Shown one piece after another: positions 10,093-63,628 of a stretch of 64,000 bases of DNA; position 1 is the first letter of the stretch, and each line of letters begins with the position of its first letter. The position numbers and the translations under genes are program-made. The stretch is taken from contig NZ_JAFN01000001.1 of assembly GCF_000526155.1 (NCBI RefSeq), positions 4,012,001 through 4,076,000 on the forward strand. Direction: 5' to 3'. Source of the stretch: Deferrisoma camini S3R1. GTDB taxonomy: Bacteria > Desulfobacterota > Deferrisomatia > Deferrisomatales > Deferrisomataceae. The notes under the pieces are model-generated. The model saw only the letters and a list, made by a program, of their open reading frames with translations. It was not told the DNA's origin and made no database searches.

Positions 10093-11451
10093 TCACTGGT
10101 TTGCCCGCATCTTTTTCAGGATCTCCATCGCCTTGCCCTTCATGCGGGGCTTCTTGGGCAGGCCGATCAGGCCGTCCACCACCCGGCCCACCAGCTCCGC
10201 CGCCCCTTGGGAGTCCCCTTGCTCCAGGAGCAGCTGGGCCCGGTCCAGGTAGGCCACCGCAGGGAGAGCCGGCTGGCCCTTCCGGGCCGCGGGCTCCTCG
10301 GCTCCGGTGTCCGGGAGGGCGCCGGCCTCCTCCGTGGGCTCGGCCGGGGCGGCGGCCCGCTCCTCCTCTTCGGAGGGCTCCGCGGCGGCTGGGGCCTCCT
10401 GTCCCTCCCGACCGGCTTCCGTTGCCGCAGGGGCCCGCTCCCCCGCTTTAGGCGGCGTCTGCCGCTGCTCCTCCTCCGTCCCGGGTCCTTCCTCGGTCGG
10501 GGGCGGAAGGGGGGGTAGGGCGGGCAGGTCCTCGTCCTCGGTGAACGACACGGCCTTCCGGGCCAGATCCAGGGCCTTGGCCACGTCCCCGTCGGCGAGG
10601 GCGAACCGGGCCAGCCCGGCGAGCCCGAGCGGGACGGTCTCGTCGAGCTCCACGGCCTTGGCGAACTCCGCCCTGGCTTTTGCCTCGTCGCCCTTGCCCT
10701 GGCGGGCCAAGGCCAGGAGGATCGCCCCCTGCAGGGCGTGGGCGTCCGGGAACGCCGGGTCTTGCTTGAGCACCTTCCGGAGCTTGCGCTTGGCCTTGGA
10801 GAGCTGGCCCCGGTGGTACAGGGTCTTGGCCAGGCCGTACTGGAGCATCACGGGGCGGGCCGCCTGGTATCGCTTTCGCTTCGGGGCGGCGGCCGCCCGG
10901 GCCTCCTCCTCGAGGCCGAGGGCCTTGAGCACCTGGTCCCGCATGTCCTGGTAGGCGCTGGTGGGGTGGCCGGAGAACTCGTAGACCACCTTCAGATCCT
11001 TGGCCAGAAACGCGGTGGCGGGTGTGGCAATCACGCCCCAGGCGTTGTACTGTTCCAGGTCCCGGTCCAGGACCACCGGGAGGGTCAGGTGGTTTTCTTC
11101 CCACACGGCCCGGATCCGGGACTCGAGGTCGGCCGGGGCGTCCGGCCCCTCGGCGTTCACGGTGAGGGCCCGCAGCCCCTTGTCCCCGAACTCGTCCACG
11201 AGCCGTTGCACCTCCTGGAGCAGGGGCACGGAGCGGGGGCTCCACAGGGCCCAGAACACCAGGATGGTGAGGGGGCCGTCCCGGTACGCGTCCAGGCTGA
11301 CCGGTCGGTCGTCCAGATCGTTCAGGGTGAAGGTGGGGGCCTGCTGCCCGCCGTGGACCCGTTTGAACGCCGCGGCCGAGGTGGTGTCAAGGCCGAGGAA
11401 CAGGCTAATCGCCACGAAGAGGATACCCACCGTCGTCTTGGACCGAATCAT
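10093..11451 (-). CDS. Exported thioredoxin-fold/TPR protein lacking redox cysteines
   Basis: Protein of 452 aa. A signal peptide (MIRSKTTVGILFVAISLFLGL) is followed by a Redoxin/TlpA-like domain (about residues 30-180), a TPR region (about 200-300) with charged repeats, a low-complexity Glu/Pro/Ala linker (about 310-400), and a final TPR-like segment. The thioredoxin active site reads FWALWSPRSVP where WCxPC is expected, so both catalytic cysteines are missing; the cis-proline loop GVIATPATAFLAKD is kept. It is therefore probably a binding or scaffold protein rather than a reductase. ATG 11451 is preceded by AAGGAGG and chosen over the upstream ATG 11499. Confidence 0.8.
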   Translation of the reverse strand: MIRSKTTVGILFVAISLFLGLDTTSAAAFKRVHGGQQAPTFTLNDLDDRPVSLDAYRDGPLTILVFWALWSPRSVPLLQEVQRLVDEFGDKGLRALTVNAEGPDAPADLESRIRAVWEENHLTLPVVLDRDLEQYNAWGVIATPATAFLAKDLKVVYEFSGHPTSAYQDMRDQVLKALGLEEEARAAAAPKRKRYQAARPVMLQYGLAKTLYHRGQLSKAKRKLRKVLKQDPAFPDAHALQGAILLALARQGKGDEAKARAEFAKAVELDETVPLGLAGLARFALADGDVAKALDLARKAVSFTEDEDLPALPPLPPPTEEGPGTEEEQRQTPPKAGERAPAATEAGREGQEAPAAAEPSEEEERAAAPAEPTEEAGALPDTGAEEPAARKGQPALPAVAYLDRAQLLLEQGDSQGAAELVGRVVDGLIGLPKKPRMKGKAMEILKKMRANQ

Positions 11452-55937: not shown

Positions 55938-56318
55938 ATGTCCCGCCCCGGCTCCGACCTGTTTCCCATGCTCGACCCCTGCACGGCCAAGACTCCGGTG
56001 GAGGAGCGCCCGCTGCTCGACCCCGGGGAGGCCCGACAGGTGGCGACGATGTTCAAGATTCTGGCCAACGACACCCGGGTCCGGCTGCTCCACGCCCTGG
56101 TGCGCACCCCCGGGCTGTGCGTGGGGGAACTCGCCGACGATCTCGGCATGAAGCCCCAGGCCGTGTCGAACCAGCTCCAGCGGCTCGCGGACCGGGGAAT
56201 CGTGGAGCCCGAGCGCCGGGGCACCCAGGTGTGCTACCGCATCGTGGACCCGTGCGTGGTCCAGCTCCTGTCGTACGGGCTGTGCCTGGCCGAGGACGCC
56301 GAGGCCCGCCGGGGCTGA
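55938..56318 (+). CDS. ArsR/SmtB-family metal-responsive repressor
   Basis: Winged-helix repressor of 126 aa. The HTH is MFKILANDTRVRLLHALVRTPG then LADDLGMKPQAVSNQLQRLADRGIVEPERRG. Candidate metal ligands are Cys15, Cys61 (LCVGEL, the position of the ArsR/CadC alpha-3 site but with one cysteine rather than CxC), Cys99, Cys106 and Cys116. The metal is unknown. AAAGGAG precedes ATG 55938. It leads an operon with an exported protein and an FtsX-type ABC transporter. Confidence 0.9.
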   Translation: MSRPGSDLFPMLDPCTAKTPVEERPLLDPGEARQVATMFKILANDTRVRLLHALVRTPGLCVGELADDLGMKPQAVSNQLQRLADRGIVEPERRGTQVCYRIVDPCVVQLLSYGLCLAEDAEARRG

Positions 56319-56399
56319 TGGGGGCCCACAGCCAGCCGCACCCAGCGCGGCCCTGCCGGCGGCGCCGGCGGGACGCCAACCCATCCGGAGGGTTTCACC

Positions 56400-56783
56400 A
56401 TGCACCACCGAATCCGTCTCTCTTTTTTCGCCCTTGGACTCGCCTTCCTCGCCGGCTCCGCGTTCGCCGGGTTCGGGTTCCCGTCCGCAAAGGGACTCGA
56501 CGTGTTCGACGTGCTCGCGGACCCGTTCGCGTACCAGGGCGTGATCACCGTGCGGGGCGGGGTCATGGCGGCCGATGTCGGCAAAGGCCGGTTCGAGCTC
56601 GTGGACTACCGGGAGTACCGGGGCTGCCGCAGCGTGAGCTGCGCGCCCAAGTGGCTCACGGTGCTCTACGACGGGGAGCTCCCCAAGAAGCGGGACGTGG
56701 TCGAGGTGGAGGGCGTCATCGAGAAGAATGCGGCCGGCGCCGGGGGGTTCGTGCTCCGGGCCCGGGAGGTCCGGGTCAAATGA
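56400..56783 (+). CDS. Hypothetical exported protein of ABC operon
   Basis: Protein of 127 aa with a signal peptide (RIRLSFFALGLAFLAGSAFAG) and a small domain resembling an OB-type beta barrel: DPFAYQGVITVRGGVMAADVGKGRFELVDYREYRGC, then VVEVEGVIEKN..GFVLRAREV. Two cysteines (GCRSVSC) could bind metal. Its stop overlaps the ATG of the permease, so it is likely a periplasmic partner of the transporter. Confidence 0.75.
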   Translation: MHHRIRLSFFALGLAFLAGSAFAGFGFPSAKGLDVFDVLADPFAYQGVITVRGGVMAADVGKGRFELVDYREYRGCRSVSCAPKWLTVLYDGELPKKRDVVEVEGVIEKNAAGAGGFVLRAREVRVK

Positions 56784-57937
56784 GCTACTGGAAGCTCGTG
56801 TGGAAGAACCTGACCCGCCGCAGGAGCCGGTTTGTCTTCACCCTGTCGGCGATCGCCGTGGGGATCGCGTCGGTGGTGACCCTGCTGTCCCTGGGCACCG
56901 GTCTGGAGGCGGAGATCCGGAAGCAGGCCGACGTGCTCGGCGCCAACCTGGTGGTCACGCCCCGGGGCTGGTGCGCGTACGAGCAGATCTCGGTGCTCAC
57001 CGGCGAGTCCCTGCCCGAGGCGATCCCCAACGACACCGTACAGGCGATCGAGCGGATCGGTGGGCTCGAAGCGGTGCCGTACCTCACCCAGCGGGCGGTC
57101 CTCCACAACCAGCCGGTCCCCCTGGTGGGGATCCTGCCGGAGCGGATGCGGGCGTTCAAGAACTGGCGCGTGGCCCGGGGAGACTACCGGCTCGACGGCT
57201 CCCACGTGGTGGTGGGCTCGGGGATCTCGGACAAGTTTCGACTGGCGGTCGGGGACACGGTGCGGATCCGGGGCCAGGAGTTCGCCGTGAGCGGGATCCT
57301 GGAGCCGGTGGGCAACCGGGACGACCTGGCCGTGTACATGGACCTCGCCGTGGCCCAGAGGCTCTACGGCGCCGGGGACAAGGTGTCGTTCGTGGCGGTC
57401 AGGGTGGACGACATCGGCCGCACCGACGACTACATCGCCGCGATCCAGTCCGCGGCCGACGTGGACGTGGTGTCGGACAAGCAGCTCCTGCGCTCGGTGC
57501 TGGCCATCGTTGGCAGCGTGGGCAACGCCCTCCAGCTGATCGCAGCCGTGGCCGTGCTCGCCGCGTGCTTCGGCATCACCAACACCATGATGACCGCGAT
57601 CTACGAGCGCAGGCGGGAGATCGGCATCCTCGGCGCCCTGGGCGCCGGGAGGGGCACGGTGTTCTCGGTGTTCGTGGGCGAGTCGGCCGTGTACGGGCTC
57701 CTGGGAGGGATCGTGGGCGTGGTGGTGGGGTTCGCGTTCTCGTACTTCGCGGCGCCCTACATCGGCCAGAACGAGTTCACCGCGTTCGTCGGAAGCGAGC
57801 AGAGCGTGAGCGTGTTCGACCTGGGCATCACCATCCAGGCCCTGGTGTTCGCGGTGCTGGTCGCGTCTTTGTCAGGCGTGTACCCCGCCCTGCGGGCCGC
57901 CCGCCTGAGCCCCGTGGAGGCGATCCGCTATGAGTGA
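56780..57937 (+). CDS. FtsX/MacB-type ABC transporter permease
   Basis: Inner-membrane permease of 385 aa with the four-helix FtsX layout: an N-terminal helix (RRRSRFVFTLSAIAVGIASVVTLLSLG), an extracytoplasmic domain (about 45-260), and three C-terminal helices with NTMMTAIYERRREIGILGALGAGRGTVF and final AARLSPVEAIRYE. Works with the ATPase encoded next (8-bp overlap). Under ArsR control, so it may move a metal-related or membrane-stress substrate; this is inference. Confidence 0.88.
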   Translation: MSYWKLVWKNLTRRRSRFVFTLSAIAVGIASVVTLLSLGTGLEAEIRKQADVLGANLVVTPRGWCAYEQISVLTGESLPEAIPNDTVQAIERIGGLEAVPYLTQRAVLHNQPVPLVGILPERMRAFKNWRVARGDYRLDGSHVVVGSGISDKFRLAVGDTVRIRGQEFAVSGILEPVGNRDDLAVYMDLAVAQRLYGAGDKVSFVAVRVDDIGRTDDYIAAIQSAADVDVVSDKQLLRSVLAIVGSVGNALQLIAAVAVLAACFGITNTMMTAIYERRREIGILGALGAGRGTVFSVFVGESAVYGLLGGIVGVVVGFAFSYFAAPYIGQNEFTAFVGSEQSVSVFDLGITIQALVFAVLVASLSGVYPALRAARLSPVEAIRYE

Positions 57938-58604
57938 TCCCATCCTTCGCGCAGAGGGTCTCACCAAGGTCTACGACGGCGGCTACCGGACGGTGGCCCT
58001 GGAGGACGTCACCCTGGAGATCCCCCGGGGCAGCCTCACCTGCATCATGGGCCCCTCCGGCCACGGCAAGAGCACGCTGCTGCACCTGCTGGGGGGGCTC
58101 GACCGTCCCACCAGCGGAAGGGTGTACCTGGACGGAGAGGACCTCACCGCGGCGTCTCCAAGGCGCCTGGCCGGGATCCGAAGCCGCCGCCTGGGGTTCG
58201 TGTTCCAGTTCTTCAACCTGCTGCCGATGCTCACGGCCCTGGAGAACGTACAGACCGCCATGCTCCTGGCCGGCGTTCCCCGCCGGGAGCAGGAGGCCCG
58301 GGCCCGGGAGCTCCTTCGCCTGGTGGGGCTCGAGGACAAGCTCCACGCCAAGCCGAACCAGCTCTCGGGCGGCCAGCGCCAGCGGGTGGCCATCGCCCGG
58401 GCCCTGGCCAACGACCCGGACCTGCTGCTCATGGACGAGCCCACCGGCAACCTGGACAGCCGGTCCGAGGAGGAGCTGCTGGAGCAGGTCCGGGCCGTGC
58501 ACGCCCGGGGCAAGACCGTGGTCATCGTCACCCACTCCGACACCGTGGCCGCCCTGGCCGAGCGGATCGTCACCATCCGGGACGGCCGGGTGGTGACGGG
58601 GTGA
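57930..58604 (+). CDS. LolD/MacB-type ABC transporter ATPase
   Basis: ATPase of 224 aa with Walker A MGPSGHGKSTLLHLLGG, Q-loop VFQFFNLLPMLTALEN, signature [15 protein letters not shown], Walker [15 protein letters not shown] and H-loop IVTHSDTVA. Walker A has a histidine (GHGKS) in place of the commoner Cys/Ala. It overlaps the permease gene by eight bases and ends the operon. Confidence 0.92.
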   Translation: MSDPILRAEGLTKVYDGGYRTVALEDVTLEIPRGSLTCIMGPSGHGKSTLLHLLGGLDRPTSGRVYLDGEDLTAASPRRLAGIRSRRLGFVFQFFNLLPMLTALENVQTAMLLAGVPRREQEARARELLRLVGLEDKLHAKPNQLSGGQRQRVAIARALANDPDLLLMDEPTGNLDSRSEEELLEQVRAVHARGKTVVIVTHSDTVAALAERIVTIRDGRVVTG

Positions 58605-58674: not shown

Positions 58675-58720
58675 TTGACAGGTGTCTTGGGTGCAGGGCA
58701 GTATGCAAATATTCGAATAT
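58675..58720 (+). promoter_or_regulatory. Promoter and ArsR-type operator of the second operon
   Basis: TTGACA (58675-58680) is a consensus -35; CAGTAT (58699-58704, 18-bp spacing) is a weak -10. The perfect 12-bp palindrome ATATTCGAATAT at 58709-58720 lies just downstream and has the AT-rich TTCGAA centre common to ArsR operators. Repression by the protein encoded from 58755 is inferred. Confidence 0.6.
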
Positions 58721-58754
58721 GATGCTAGATGCACACGGCAGGGAGAGAACCGAG

Positions 58755-59120
58755 ATGAAAGACCTGGACATCCGGGAAAAGGCCGACCTGCTGCGGCTCC
58801 TGGGCCACCCCACCCGGCTCCTGATCCTGGAGGAGCTCGCCCGGGGCGTGAAGTGCGTGACCGACATCCGGGACCTTCTGGACATCCCCCAGCCCAACGT
58901 GTCCCAGCACCTGGCCGTGCTGCGCCAGGCCCGCCTGGTGGACTTCTACGAGGACGGCCAGCTCCGGTGCTACTACCTGCTGCGGCCGGCCCTGGTGGCC
59001 GCGCTCTTGGAGTTCCTGGGGGGCGAGTACCCGGTGGTCAAGCGCGACCGGGAGGACGTGCGCCGCGAAGGCCGGCTGCGGGAGCAAGAGCGGGGCGTGG
59101 CCCCGGCGTGCGAGGGGTGA
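58755..59120 (+). CDS. ArsR-family transcriptional repressor
   Basis: Winged-helix regulator of 121 aa: LLRLLGHPTRLLILEELARGVKCVTDIRDLLDIPQPNVSQHLAVLRQARLVDFYEDG. Cys34 sits where ArsR has ELCVCDL but only one cysteine remains; Cys72 and Cys119 could complete a thiolate site. ATG 58755 is chosen for its GGGAGAG site over ATG 58719, which lies inside the operator. It controls the selenoprotein operon that follows. Confidence 0.9.
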   Translation: MKDLDIREKADLLRLLGHPTRLLILEELARGVKCVTDIRDLLDIPQPNVSQHLAVLRQARLVDFYEDGQLRCYYLLRPALVAALLEFLGGEYPVVKRDREDVRREGRLREQERGVAPACEG

Positions 59121-59140: not shown

Positions 59141-60148
59141 ATGGAGAAACGTCCGTCCAAGGACCAGCGGCGCCACTGGACCGAGGTGTACGCCCGGACG
59201 CCGGCGTTCTTCGGCGAGGAGCCGAGCGAGTTCGCCCGTATGGCGCTGGAGCAGTTCCGGGCCGAGGGCGCCGGCACGGTGCTGGAGCTGGGGTTCGGCC
59301 AGGGCCGCGACACCCTGTTCTTCGCGGAAAACGGCCTGCGGGTCGCGGCCCTGGACTACTCGGAGCAGGCCGTGCGGGAGGTGGAGGCGGCGGCCCGGGC
59401 CCGGGGGCTCGCGGACCGGGTCGAGGCGGGGGTCCACGACGTGCGGGACCCCCTGCCGTTCGGGGAGGGCGCGTTCGACGCGTGCTACGCCCACATGCTC
59501 CTGTGCATGGAACTCACCGAGACCCAGATCGCGTTCGTGCTGGCCGAGCTCCACCGGGTGGTCAAGCCCGGCGGGCTCGTGCTGTACACGGTGCGCAGCG
59601 ACCACGACAAGCACTTTCGGGCCGGCACCCACCTGGGCGAGGACCTCTACGAGGTGGGCGGATTCGTGGTGCACTTCTTCACCGAGGAGAAGGTCCGCCG
59701 CCTCGCCCGGGGGTACGAGGTGCTGGACGTGGGCCGCATGCAGGAAGGCAGCCTGCCCCGGGACCTGTACGTGGTGACCCTTCGAAGGCGTCCGGGACCG
59801 ATGCCGGACCGGGTGGAGGAGACGAACATGGAGAACCCGATGACGCGGTTCGAGGCGTTCTTCGAGACCGCGAAGTCCAACCCGGCGCTGGAGCCCAAGA
59901 CCCGGGGGCTCCTGTTCCTGGCCGCGTCGCTCGCGGCCGGCTGCGAACTCTGAACCGACTGGAGCCTCGCGGTCGCGAGGGAGAGCGGAGCCACCGACGA
60001 AGAGCTGGAAGCCGCCACCGCCATCGCCATGAGCGTGACGGCCCACCAGACCCGCCTGCTGTTCGACAAGATGAAAGGCCGGCATCCCCAGGCCCCGGCG
60101 GCCGGGGAAGGAGAGGCCGCCGGTTGCCACGAGCCGGGGGCCACGTGA
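59141..60148 (+). CDS. Methyltransferase-AhpD-like selenoprotein (in-frame TGA read as Sec)
   Basis: One frame runs through a TGA at 59951-59953 to a TGA at 60146-60148, giving 335 aa. Residues 1-215 are a class I SAM methyltransferase, TehB-like (VLELGFGQGRDTLFFAENGL, HRVVKPGGLVLYTVRSD). From about 230 comes a carboxymuconolactone decarboxylase/AhpD domain: MTRFEAFFETAKSNPALEPK, GLLFLAASLAAGCEL-U-TDWSLAVARESGATDEELEAA. The TGA occupies the second cysteine of the family's CxxC (Cys268, Sec271). Directly downstream, CCTCGC-GGTC-GCGAGG forms a bacterial SECIS-type hairpin 11 bases after TGA. GGAGGAG before ATG 59828 suggests the AhpD part may also be made alone. Without Sec insertion the product is 270 aa. 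Confidence 0.82.
59951..59987 (+). promoter_or_regulatory. SECIS-like selenocysteine insertion hairpin
   Basis: TGA at 59951-59953, then 11 bases, then a perfect 6-bp stem CCTCGC/GCGAGG (59965-59970 and 59975-59980) closing the tetraloop GGTC. The loop begins 18 bases after the TGA, within the range for bacterial SECIS elements, and GGTC resembles the SelB-recognised GGTCT loop of E. coli fdhF. Confidence 0.8.
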
Positions 60149-60211
60149 GGCCGCTGAGCGGTGCTTCGGCGAAGCACGCAAACGAGCCCTCGCGCTGACG
60201 GATCGGCAACG

Positions 60212-60829
60212 ATGCCCGGACGGACGCAAAAGGCACTCCTGTTCCTTGCCCGGGGGTTCGAAGACCTGGAGGCCGCCGCCGTGACCGCGGTCTGCGGCTG
60301 GACCGGGTACCGGGAGCATCTTCCTTCGATCCACCTCACAACCACGGGCCTGCATGCCGAGGTGCAAGGCCGCTTCGGCACCCGGGTCCGGCCCCACCGG
60401 CACCTCGGAGACGTGGACCCGGACGAATACGCCGCCCTGGCCGTGCCCGGGGGCTTTTTCAGCCATGGGTTCGATGAGGCGTTCGATCCCCGCTTGTACC
60501 GGGTCGCCCAGGCGATCCACGCGCGGGGGGGCATGATCGCCACCTGGTGCGTCGGGGTTCTGCCCATCGCCGAGGCGGGCTTGCTGCGGGGCGGGCGGGC
60601 CACCACCTACCGGTTCAGCCGCCATCACGACAACCCGGGACGCCTGCGGGCCCTGGGGTGCGAACCGGTTCCCGCCCCGCTCGTGGTCTGGAACCGGATC
60701 GCTTCGTGCGCCGGTCCCGCCCAGTCCCTCGAGGTGGCCTTCCTCTTGCTGGAATTCCTGGTCGGAGAGGCCGGGGCCGCAGAGGTGCGTCGGTATCTCG
60801 CCGGAACCGATAGAGAGGGCATGGGATGA
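60212..60829 (+). CDS. DJ-1/PfpI-family protein
   Basis: Class I glutamine-amidotransferase-like fold, 205 aa: KALLFLARGFEDLEAAAVTAV, YAALAVPGGFFSHGFDEAFD, and the nucleophile-elbow cysteine in MIATWCVGVLPIAEAGLL. Probable stress-related hydrolase or deglycase-like role; substrate unknown. ATG 60212 has no strong ribosome-binding site, so a start slightly upstream (from 60161) is possible. It overlaps the next gene by four bases. Confidence 0.85.
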   Translation: MPGRTQKALLFLARGFEDLEAAAVTAVCGWTGYREHLPSIHLTTTGLHAEVQGRFGTRVRPHRHLGDVDPDEYAALAVPGGFFSHGFDEAFDPRLYRVAQAIHARGGMIATWCVGVLPIAEAGLLRGGRATTYRFSRHHDNPGRLRALGCEPVPAPLVVWNRIASCAGPAQSLEVAFLLLEFLVGEAGAAEVRRYLAGTDREGMG

Positions 60830-61290
60830 CGACGACCACCTGGAAACGGGCCGTGGCCGTGGGCGCGGCCGTCGGGATCCTGAACCTCGGGCACTACGCG
60901 CTCACCGCGAAGGTCCCCGGTCTCGAGCTGCCGTTCGGCATCTTCCCCGGCGGGTTCCCGGTGGCGGCGGTGTCCGCGGCCGCCGGAAGGCTGACCCCCC
61001 AACTGAAGGTGATGCTGGTGTTCGGGCTGGGGGTGGTGATCGGCGCCGCCGCGAGCGCGTATCGAACGGGCGGATTCGTCTGGCAGGGCCGGGTGCCGGT
61101 GAGGGAGCTGCTCCAGGGGCTGGCCGGCGGGACGGTCATGGCCGTGGGGGTGTGGATGGCCCAGGGGTGTCTCAACAAGCACGGCCTCAGCGGGGCCCCG
61201 GGGCTCATGCTGAGCAGCTGGGTCACGATGGCCGGCATCGCCGCCACGGCGTGGCTCCTGGCCCGACCCGGCCGGCGGGGTGCCCGATGA
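60826..61290 (+). CDS. YeeE/YedE-family half-transporter (first subunit)
   Basis: Inner-membrane protein of 154 aa with about four helices and the half-module pattern of thiosulfate/sulfur-compound importers: FGIFPGGFPVAAVSA, QLKVMLVFGLGVVIGAAASAYRTGGF, GGTVMAVGVWMAQGCLNKHGLSG. The cysteine in AQGC matches the substrate-relay position of the family. Overlaps the second half-transporter by four bases. Confidence 0.85.
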   Translation: MTTTTWKRAVAVGAAVGILNLGHYALTAKVPGLELPFGIFPGGFPVAAVSAAAGRLTPQLKVMLVFGLGVVIGAAASAYRTGGFVWQGRVPVRELLQGLAGGTVMAVGVWMAQGCLNKHGLSGAPGLMLSSWVTMAGIAATAWLLARPGRRGAR

Positions 61291-61718
61291 TCCTGGCGGC
61301 GGTGTTCGTGGTGGGCCTGGCCCTGGGCGTGCTCGTGCAGCGCTCCAGGTTCTGCGTGTTTGGGGCGATGACCGACTGGTTCGGGCAGGGCCGGCCCGAG
61401 CGGGCCCTCATGGTGCTCGCGGCGGTGGCCGTGTTCGGGCTGGTGAACCTCGTGGGCTACCGCCACGGGGCCGAGTACCCGGGGGCCTTGTTTCTCGTCG
61501 GCGGTGCCGTGCAGGCCGTGGGCTACGCTCTCGGCCGGGGCTGTCCCCTCACCCTGCTCGTACGGCTCGGGGAGGGGAGCCGGTTCCACCTGGCGGTGTT
61601 CGCGGGATTCCTGGTGGGCGTGGGGCTGTACACGGGGCTGCTCGCCCGCCCCGTGGAAGCCCTGTTGGGCCCTCTCACGTGGACCGGCGCCCAGACGCTC
61701 GGGGCGTTGTTGCACTGA
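61287..61718 (+). CDS. YeeE/YedE-family half-transporter (second subunit)
   Basis: Inner-membrane protein of 143 aa: VVGLALGVLVQRSRFCVFGAMTDWF, GGAVQAVGYALGRGCPLTLLVRLGEG. The paired cysteine motifs RSRFC and GRGC are those of YeeE/YedE proteins, which move sulfur- or possibly selenium-containing species. Together with the preceding gene it equals one full-length transporter. Location in the selenoprotein operon makes a selenium link attractive but unproven. Confidence 0.87.
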   Translation: MILAAVFVVGLALGVLVQRSRFCVFGAMTDWFGQGRPERALMVLAAVAVFGLVNLVGYRHGAEYPGALFLVGGAVQAVGYALGRGCPLTLLVRLGEGSRFHLAVFAGFLVGVGLYTGLLARPVEALLGPLTWTGAQTLGALLH

Positions 61719-62307: not shown

Positions 62308-62634
62308 ATGCCCACCATCGAATTTGAACCCATCGGTTCCGGCCCGTTGTACGAACGCCTGGCCAGACGTCTGGCCGGCTTGGTGGATCGCGGAACATTC
62401 CGCACCGGGGAACGGTTGCCGTCGATCCGGGGGCCGGCCCGGGATCTGCGGGTGGGGGTGAACACGGTGCGCGAGGCTTACGCCCTGCTGGAGGACCGGG
62501 GGATCGTGGAGGCGAGGCCGCCGTCCGGTTTCTACGTGCGCCCCCGGCTCCCCGACCTTCTGGCGGACTCCGGGATCTCAGAGGGAAGCCTGCGGCCCCG
62601 GCCCGTGAACGTCCGGGAGGCGATGGGCCGATGA
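62308..62634 (+). CDS. Short GntR-family (MocR-like) HTH regulator
   Basis: Winged-helix protein of 108 aa: PLYERLARRLAGLVDRGTFRTGERLPSIRGPARDLRVGVNTVREAYALLEDRGIVEARPPSGFYVRPR. This is the N-terminal DNA-binding module typical of MocR/PdxR proteins, whose aminotransferase-like domain of about 350 aa is absent here. The C-terminal RPRPVNVREAMGR resembles the start of the interdomain linker. Its stop overlaps the azlC start. It probably regulates azlCD, or is a remnant of a longer gene. Confidence 0.8.
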   Translation: MPTIEFEPIGSGPLYERLARRLAGLVDRGTFRTGERLPSIRGPARDLRVGVNTVREAYALLEDRGIVEARPPSGFYVRPRLPDLLADSGISEGSLRPRPVNVREAMGR

Positions 62635-63329
62635 GCGCACTCGGGTGGCGGATGGGGTTCCGGGCCAACCTTCCGGTGGCCGCGAGCGTAGCGGCCTACG
62701 GGAGCGTGCTCGGCGTGCTGGCGGCCCAGAAGGGCCTCGGCTGGGCCGACGTGCTCCTCATGGACCTGATGGTGTTCGCGGGCTCGTCCCAGTTCGTCAT
62801 GGTGGACATGTGGACCTCGCCCCTGCCCACCGCGGCCATGGCCGCGGCCGTGGGCGTGATCAACGCCCGGTACGTCCTGATCACAGCCACCCTCCGGCCC
62901 CTGTTCGAGGGGCGGCGCATCCTCGAGAAGCTCTTCTTCGTGCACTTCGTGGCCGACGAGAACTGGGCCGTGACCATGGCCGCACGGCGCCAGGGCGGGG
63001 CCGACCTGGGGCACCTGTGGGGCGGGGGGGTGTGTCTGCTGGGGGCGTGGTGCCTGGGCACGGTGGCCGGGGTGGGGTTCGGCGCGGCCGTGCCCGACCC
63101 CGAGGCCTGGGGGCTGGACTTCGCGTTCACCGCCGTGTTCACCGCGCTGGCGGTGAGTCTGTGGCGGGGTTCCCGGCGCGACGGCTTGCCCTGGCTGGCG
63201 GCCGTGGCCGCGGCCTGCCTGGGCGAGCGGCTTTTGCCGGGAACCTGGTACGTGCTCGCGGGCGGGTTGGCCGGTGCCGTGACCGCGGCCTGTCTGCCCG
63301 ACGAGGGGGAAGGGGGGCGGCGAGGATGA
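62631..63329 (+). CDS. azlC: AzlC-family branched-chain amino-acid exporter subunit
   Basis: Inner-membrane protein of 232 aa with the AzlC signature LPVAASVAAYGSVLGVLAAQKGL, LLMDLMVFAGSSQFVMVDMW and INARYVLITATLRPLF. Forms the large subunit of a branched-chain amino-acid export pair with AzlD. The ATG overlaps the regulator's stop codon, and its own end overlaps azlD. Confidence 0.92.
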   Translation: MSALGWRMGFRANLPVAASVAAYGSVLGVLAAQKGLGWADVLLMDLMVFAGSSQFVMVDMWTSPLPTAAMAAAVGVINARYVLITATLRPLFEGRRILEKLFFVHFVADENWAVTMAARRQGGADLGHLWGGGVCLLGAWCLGTVAGVGFGAAVPDPEAWGLDFAFTAVFTALAVSLWRGSRRDGLPWLAAVAAACLGERLLPGTWYVLAGGLAGAVTAACLPDEGEGGRRG

Positions 63330-63628
63330 TCGGCCGGGCCACGCTGGGGACGATCGCGGCGGCCGCCGCCGTGACCTACGCCCTGCGGGCCGGGGGGCTG
63401 CTGCTCGCGGGTCGGCTGCCCCGGGGGGGACCGGTGCGCCGGGCCATGGAGGCCCTTCCCGGCGCGATCCTCGTCTCCCTGGTGGCCCCCTCTGCCCTGA
63501 AGAGCGGCCCGGCAGGTTTGGCGGCCGTGGCGCTCACGGCCTGGCTCACCCTGCGTACCCGAAACGTGTTCGTCGCGATGGCGGCCGGCATGGCCGTGGT
63601 GGTCGTGGCCCGGCGCTTCGGCGGGTGA
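63326..63628 (+). CDS. azlD: AzlD-family branched-chain amino-acid exporter subunit
   Basis: Small membrane protein of 100 aa with about three helices: AVTYALRAGGLLLAGRLP, ALPGAILVSLVAPSAL, TRNVFVAMAAGMAVVVVARR. The AzlD pattern and overlap with azlC make the pairing secure. The GAGG before ATG 63326 lies inside azlC. Confidence 0.9.
   Translation: MIGRATLGTIAAAAAVTYALRAGGLLLAGRLPRGGPVRRAMEALPGAILVSLVAPSALKSGPAGLAAVALTAWLTLRTRNVFVAMAAGMAVVVVARRFGG

Follow-up and report, generated by a model that had tools for sequence, protein, structure and literature searches.

The question raised by the locus studied here is what protein is encoded by a reading frame of Deferrisoma camini S3R1 that contains an in-frame TGA triplet, and how far that protein extends. 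An initial annotation of the window (the whole stretch of 64,000 nucleotides that was analysed) had delimited an AhpD-like selenoprotein at positions 59828–60148, with selenocysteine (Sec) replacing the second cysteine of a CxxC motif. These bounds did not hold, as upstream of 59828 the frame continues stop-free as far as an ATG at 59141 and codes for a methyltransferase, and the likely stop lies at 60155–60157. We consider it very probable, judging from the sequence, that the locus is mduS, encoding a fusion of a SAM methyltransferase with a redox (CMD) domain that bears two Sec sites (table 1). The predicted protein matches the NCBIfam family NF045649 (2X_seleno_MduS) with 491.8 bits, against a cut-off of 380, over residues 4–335 (profile positions 2–335), and in a whole-genome search profile positions 2–337 were matched across two TGA triplets. 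What stands of the AhpD-like selenoprotein is the Sec in place of the second Cys of CxxC; rather than simply a stand-alone protein, the domain containing it is the C-terminal portion of an MduS fusion that carries another Sec.

Table 1. Features of the mduS locus and its surroundings; positions are those of the window.
Feature	Position	Strand	Characteristics
Second ArsR-type regulator	55938..56318	+	NF033788, 80.6 bits
Small, probably exported protein	56400..56783	+	two Cys (CRSVSC); matches no Pfam family
MacB/FtsX-type permease	56780..57937 (start approximate, within ORF 56117-57937)	+	PF12704, PF02687
LolD/MacB-type ABC ATPase	57930..58604	+	PF00005, 128 bits
ArsR/SmtB-type regulator	58719..59120	+	directly upstream of mduS; NF033788, 77.4 bits (cut-off 55)
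mduS	59141..60157	+	338 residues and stop: SAM methyltransferase, linker, CMD/AhpD-like domain, Sec tail; NF045649
Class I SAM methyltransferase domain and predicted disordered linker	59141..59827	+	PF13649, 63.9 bits
Internal Shine-Dalgarno and in-frame ATG	59815..59830	+	GGAGGAG 59815-59821, 6 nt, ATG 59828-59830
CMD/AhpD-like domain and part of tail	59828..60145	+	CELU, residues 268-271; Pfam PF02627, 44.1 bits (cut-off 23)
Sec codon 1 (Sec271)	TGA 59951..59953	+	conserved TGA; Cys in homologues
Bacterial SECIS-type hairpin 1	59965..59980	+	CCTCGC-GGTC-GCGAGG, 6 bp, loop 17 nt from UGA
Probable Sec codon 2 (Sec336)	TGA 60146..60148	+	T-U-(G/S)-(R/V/K/T)-stop in 17/17 tailed relatives
Likely true stop	60155..60157	+	stop at same codon in all 17 tailed genes
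SECIS-type hairpin 2 in 3' UTR	60161..60177	+	GTGCTTC-GGC-GAAGCAC, 7 bp, loop 19 nt from UGA
DJ-1/PfpI family protein	60212..60829	+	PF01965, 54.1 bits
Two half-length YeeE/YedE (Sulf_transp) transporter genes	60826..61718	+	PF04143, profile 180-310, then 1-113

The predicted fold of the methyltransferase domain resembles those of solved SAM methyltransferases (Z about 20–23.6 in a fold search), the tellurite methyltransferase TehB being among the nearest; this similarity says little on the substrate, as class I methyltransferases share one fold and act on many substrates. Since the fold search tested only residues 3–219 well, fold relatives of the CMD part are neither supported nor excluded by it. 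Both the linker and the C-terminal tail are predicted to be disordered, with pLDDT values under 50 at residues 225–232 and 317–338, respectively. AhpD peroxidases carry the catalytic motif Glu-x11-Cys-x2-Cys-x3-His. The CMD domain of MduS has Gly at the position of the Glu and Ser at that of the His and, with these two residues of the motif missing, MduS is strictly speaking no AhpD peroxidase.

A family of this architecture has already been described. NF045649 is attributed to Haft and Tolstoy (2025, mSystems 10:e0141724) in a review (PMC13188914) that lists MduS with two Sec and the motif CxxU. The D. camini gene has the same domain order, length, CxxU motif and two predicted Sec, no difference excludes its membership, and on these shared sequence features it is a further member of MduS. 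Likewise, the second Sec belongs to the known family, as the NF045649 profile extends beyond the second TGA and the number of Sec given in the review is two. Three other families resemble MduS in part. Arsenite methyltransferase/AhpD domain selenoproteins (NF041537, ArsM_AhpD_UU) likewise combine a methyltransferase with an AhpD-type CxxU domain, but their methyltransferase is of the ArsM type with UxxG (PMC13188914), and MduS scores 93.5 bits against a cut-off of 510, through its C-terminal CMD part only. Judging from the family name, the methyltransferase/UXPK-star double selenoproteins (NF047649) and UXX-star proteins have Sec near the C-terminus of a methyltransferase; MduS reaches 27.1 bits where NF047649 requires 460, and its tail differs (U-G-R). 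The GSU3128 family (seleno)proteins, distant AhpD homologues (NF041047), have a small CMD domain with CxxU as in MduS, but lack the methyltransferase and the Sec tail (35.7 bits, cut-off 110). Stand-alone genes of this general kind do occur in related genomes, where small CMD proteins with an in-frame TGA at CxxU were found at L051, L060, L119, L122 and L123.

The linker of the D. camini gene harbours a putative internal translation start. Equivalent combinations of a Shine-Dalgarno sequence and a start codon are present in 11 of the 12 CMD-bearing genes examined, with computed pairing energies of −7.6 to −12.1 kcal/mol, whereas, among the remaining in-frame ATGs in this gene set (81 in all), only one reaches −8 kcal/mol or stronger. 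The site stays while the residues encoded at it differ (EE, KE, VEG, EV), and in L022 GGAGGTG is coupled with a GTG start. All this argues against the possibility of an inert site, at which no translation begins and whose Shine-Dalgarno and ATG are either a relic of the fusion event or a side effect of encoding Glu-Glu in a GC-rich linker. That possibility nevertheless has its own merits: shuffling of synonymous codons seldom excludes chance once the encoded residues are fixed (the result was mostly not significant, L072 alone giving P = 0.015, and the test is mostly uninformative in GC-rich genes), the site is weak in L095, and L025 keeps it despite having no CMD domain. To us, the chances that the site is such an inert remnant appear evenly balanced, and those that translation starts at 59828 in the cell, as far as can be judged from comparison of the genes, fall slightly below that. 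If it does, the product could be a short CMD-Sec-Sec protein corresponding to the interval noticed initially.

Another interpretation is that the locus encodes just a stand-alone AhpD-like selenoprotein that starts at 59828 and contains one Sec. It would account for the strong Shine-Dalgarno at this ATG, and relatives do have stand-alone CxxU CMD selenoproteins (e.g. L060, L122 and L123), but it leaves aside the stop-free upstream frame encoding a methyltransferase, as well as the same fusion order shared by Deferrisomatales, Desulfuromonadia-type genomes and a Myxococcota genome, and we find it highly improbable. The ATG at 59828 is thus not the only start and probably not the main one, with a short protein being possible as an extra product beside the fusion.

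The stop of the initial annotation, TGA 60146–60148, probably encodes a second Sec. It is followed by GGC CGC TGA, giving a predicted protein end of Sec-Gly-Arg. The usual pairing of Cys and Sec among homologues supports Sec271 only: no Cys counterpart of Sec336 was found among all fetched relatives, in which the methyltransferases carry the tail TGA or have no tail. This, together with the fact that only two codons follow and that the next stop is also TGA, is what could be said for an alternative in which Sec271 alone is real and the second TGA is an ordinary stop. That alternative is, however, very unlikely in view of what the 17 tailed genes have in common. In all of them a stop follows exactly three codons on, being TAA in seven (L023, L025, L071, L072, L084, L090 and L093), and the codon directly after the TGA is nearly always one for Gly (GGN), or else Ser. 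All 17 also have a hairpin outside the coding region, with the loop starting 16–20 nt from the UGA, and four genes (L025, L073, L084 and L093) have retained both the tail and this hairpin without a CMD domain.

The downstream hairpin itself shows covariation. When the arms were paired by a script (MAFFT misplaced the 3' arm, the loops being 3 or 4 nt), compensatory changes became apparent at pairs 3, 6 and 7 among the 17 genes: pair 3 is T-A or C-G, pair 6 is mostly T-A and also C-G or G-C, and pair 7 is G-C, C-G, A-T or T-A in most, with pairs 6 and 7 unpaired in a few. As the hairpin lies 3' of the stop and its pairing is kept while the letters change, coding constraint cannot explain its conservation. 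The bacterial SECIS model has a stem of 4–16 bp and a loop of 3–9 nt that has G in its first two positions and lies 16–37 nt from the UGA (PMC13188914), and hairpin 2 of D. camini fits it with its 7 bp, GGC loop and distance of 19 nt.

Two peculiarities were encountered among the relatives. One genome (G005) has two mduS copies, L040 and L070, the second with Ser replacing the Gly after the tail Sec, and in another (G441) mduS (L095/L099) is seemingly frameshifted within the methyltransferase domain, with the CMD part, both TGA triplets and the tail hairpin intact. In its layout, the MduS tail is reminiscent of mammalian thioredoxin reductase, in which Sec close to the C-terminus sits on a flexible tail and is followed by Gly; this is an analogy only and no homology is implied.

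At the first TGA (59951–59953), the initial annotation was borne out. The triplet is in frame and is followed by 64 sense codons, the residues on its two sides join into one domain of the CMD/AhpD type (PF02627), and it occupies the place of the second Cys of CxxC. All 13 CMD-bearing family members compared have TGA at this column, and related CMD proteins, as the annotation had proposed to check, use TGC or TGT there (L112, L113, L114, L115, L117 and L120), one such protein with Cys being a paralogue in the genome of D. camini itself (CPYC). The hairpin starting 11 nt past the TGA, with the 6-bp stem and GGTC loop originally described, is at the distance expected of a bacterial SECIS and agrees with the model cited above in stem, loop and spacing (17 nt). 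By itself such a hairpin is unexceptional. Its folding energy does not stand out from that of GC-rich DNA (MFE z = 0.44), and of the 1043 TGA triplets in the window, 19 (about 2%) precede a hairpin of at least 6 bp whose loop and spacing are suitable, and five precede one of at least 7 bp. A lone hairpin is therefore weak evidence, and it is conservation that carries the case: in the CMD-bearing genes compared the hairpin is conserved and its loop always begins 17 nt after the UGA, and in L023 one C-G pair has become T-A through changes in both arms, with Leu replaced by Phe and Arg by Lys in the protein. Beyond the TGA, the D. camini gene aligns with L022 without an indel, and of the 64 codons 12 differ synonymously and 13 by a replacement, figures that alone are weak evidence of selection.

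The genome also has the machinery needed. All four sel genes, for which the annotation had suggested a search, are present above curated cut-offs: selA (591.7 bits), selB (340.3 bits), selD (353.5 bits) and selC, a tRNA-Sec with the anticodon TCA (72.6 bits). The selD gene (L010) is itself a Sec gene, in which CGU is followed by a hairpin whose loop starts with GGTC, exactly as that of hairpin 1. These comparisons lend good support to a Sec replacing the second Cys of CxxC in MduS, and the gene almost certainly reads UGA as selenocysteine. The idea that TGA 59951–59953 is a true stop in a truncated gene or pseudogene, which is where standard annotation would end the protein, is already contradicted by the comparative data (conserved codons, Cys/Sec pairing, conserved hairpin and all four sel genes) and can practically be discarded.

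When 40 methyltransferase domains were placed in a tree, the 16 tailed proteins grouped as a single clade (98/91), inside which the CMD domain has been gained or lost at least twice with the tail Sec always retained. The tail Sec is thus the constant feature of the group, while the presence of the CMD domain changes. Untailed relatives of the methyltransferase come from Methanomassiliicoccales-type archaea, Chloroflexota, Actinomycetota and other genomes of the phylum to which D. camini belongs. Our literature search, which did not cover the original MduS description, came across no experimental demonstration that Sec is inserted into an MduS protein and no tested function of the family; within the same limits, the covarying hairpin in the 3' UTR, the repeated changes of the CMD domain beside a constant tail, the conserved internal start and the tailed members without CMD are apparently undescribed.

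Some insight into the role of MduS may come from its neighbours. In the window, the gene for the small two-Cys protein sits between an ArsR gene and the FtsX-type permease gene, and a similar gene set surrounds mduS in L101, which comes from another class: its permease is 72% identical, the small protein (at 10740–11138) 38% identical, and there are two ArsR counterparts (38%). Relatives of the ABC ATPase are found near family members in L101 (70%) and L108 (65%), the tailed methyltransferase of L108 having the ATPase before it and ArsR after it. The ArsR proteins of L101 carry ELCVCDL, with the Cys-Val-Cys motif of the arsenic type, whereas those of the window lack this motif; the ABC/ArsR context is missing from several relatives. 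On the other side, DJ-1/PfpI also adjoins mduS in L022, L101, L104 and L105. The split YeeE/YedE pair, in which the C-terminal half comes first, recurs in L022. L022, L101 and L111 have genes for a methionine gamma-lyase-type enzyme and another methyltransferase nearby; TauE is encoded near mduS in L022 and L023, and OsmC in L111. Farther away in the window (62631–63628), a gene for an AzlC-like transporter is followed by an overlapping AzlD-looking frame.

We envisage that SelB and tRNA-Sec insert Sec at both UGA codons, at each by means of the hairpin just downstream, the second of which lies past the stop codon. The methyltransferase may act on a soft, redox-active acceptor, such as a thiol, sulfide/selenide or a metalloid, which the mobile tail Sec would bind or reduce in its service, with the CxxSec domain, where present, recycling the tail. 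A role in chalcogen or metalloid methylation, suggested by the domain types, the mobility of the tail and the neighbouring genes, is one we can offer only with reservation, the balance leaning somewhat against it; a search of the literature for hints on the MduS substrate yielded nothing specific. The internal start might provide additional free CMD subunits to complete a CMD oligomer. The mduS locus would then be a gene within a gene, whose internal ribosome-binding site gives a short double-Sec CMD protein besides the fusion, both co-assembling, with the C-terminal Sec tail as the invariant working centre serving the methyltransferase and the CxxSec domain as an optional partner, repeatedly acquired or discarded; taken as a whole, this picture is speculative and we find it rather doubtful. 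In the explanation at large we are fairly confident, on account of the MduS identity and UGA decoding and weighed down by the uncertain function.

Plain gene callers would end MduS at residue 270 and again at residue 335, and both Sec residues would be lost. If the internal start is used, the locus would represent an unusual case of two Sec proteins made from one gene. The sulfur-related and ArsR neighbours offer concrete substrates to test, and as it is the tail Sec, not the CxxU domain, that the family has never given up, the biochemistry of MduS should be pointed at the tail.
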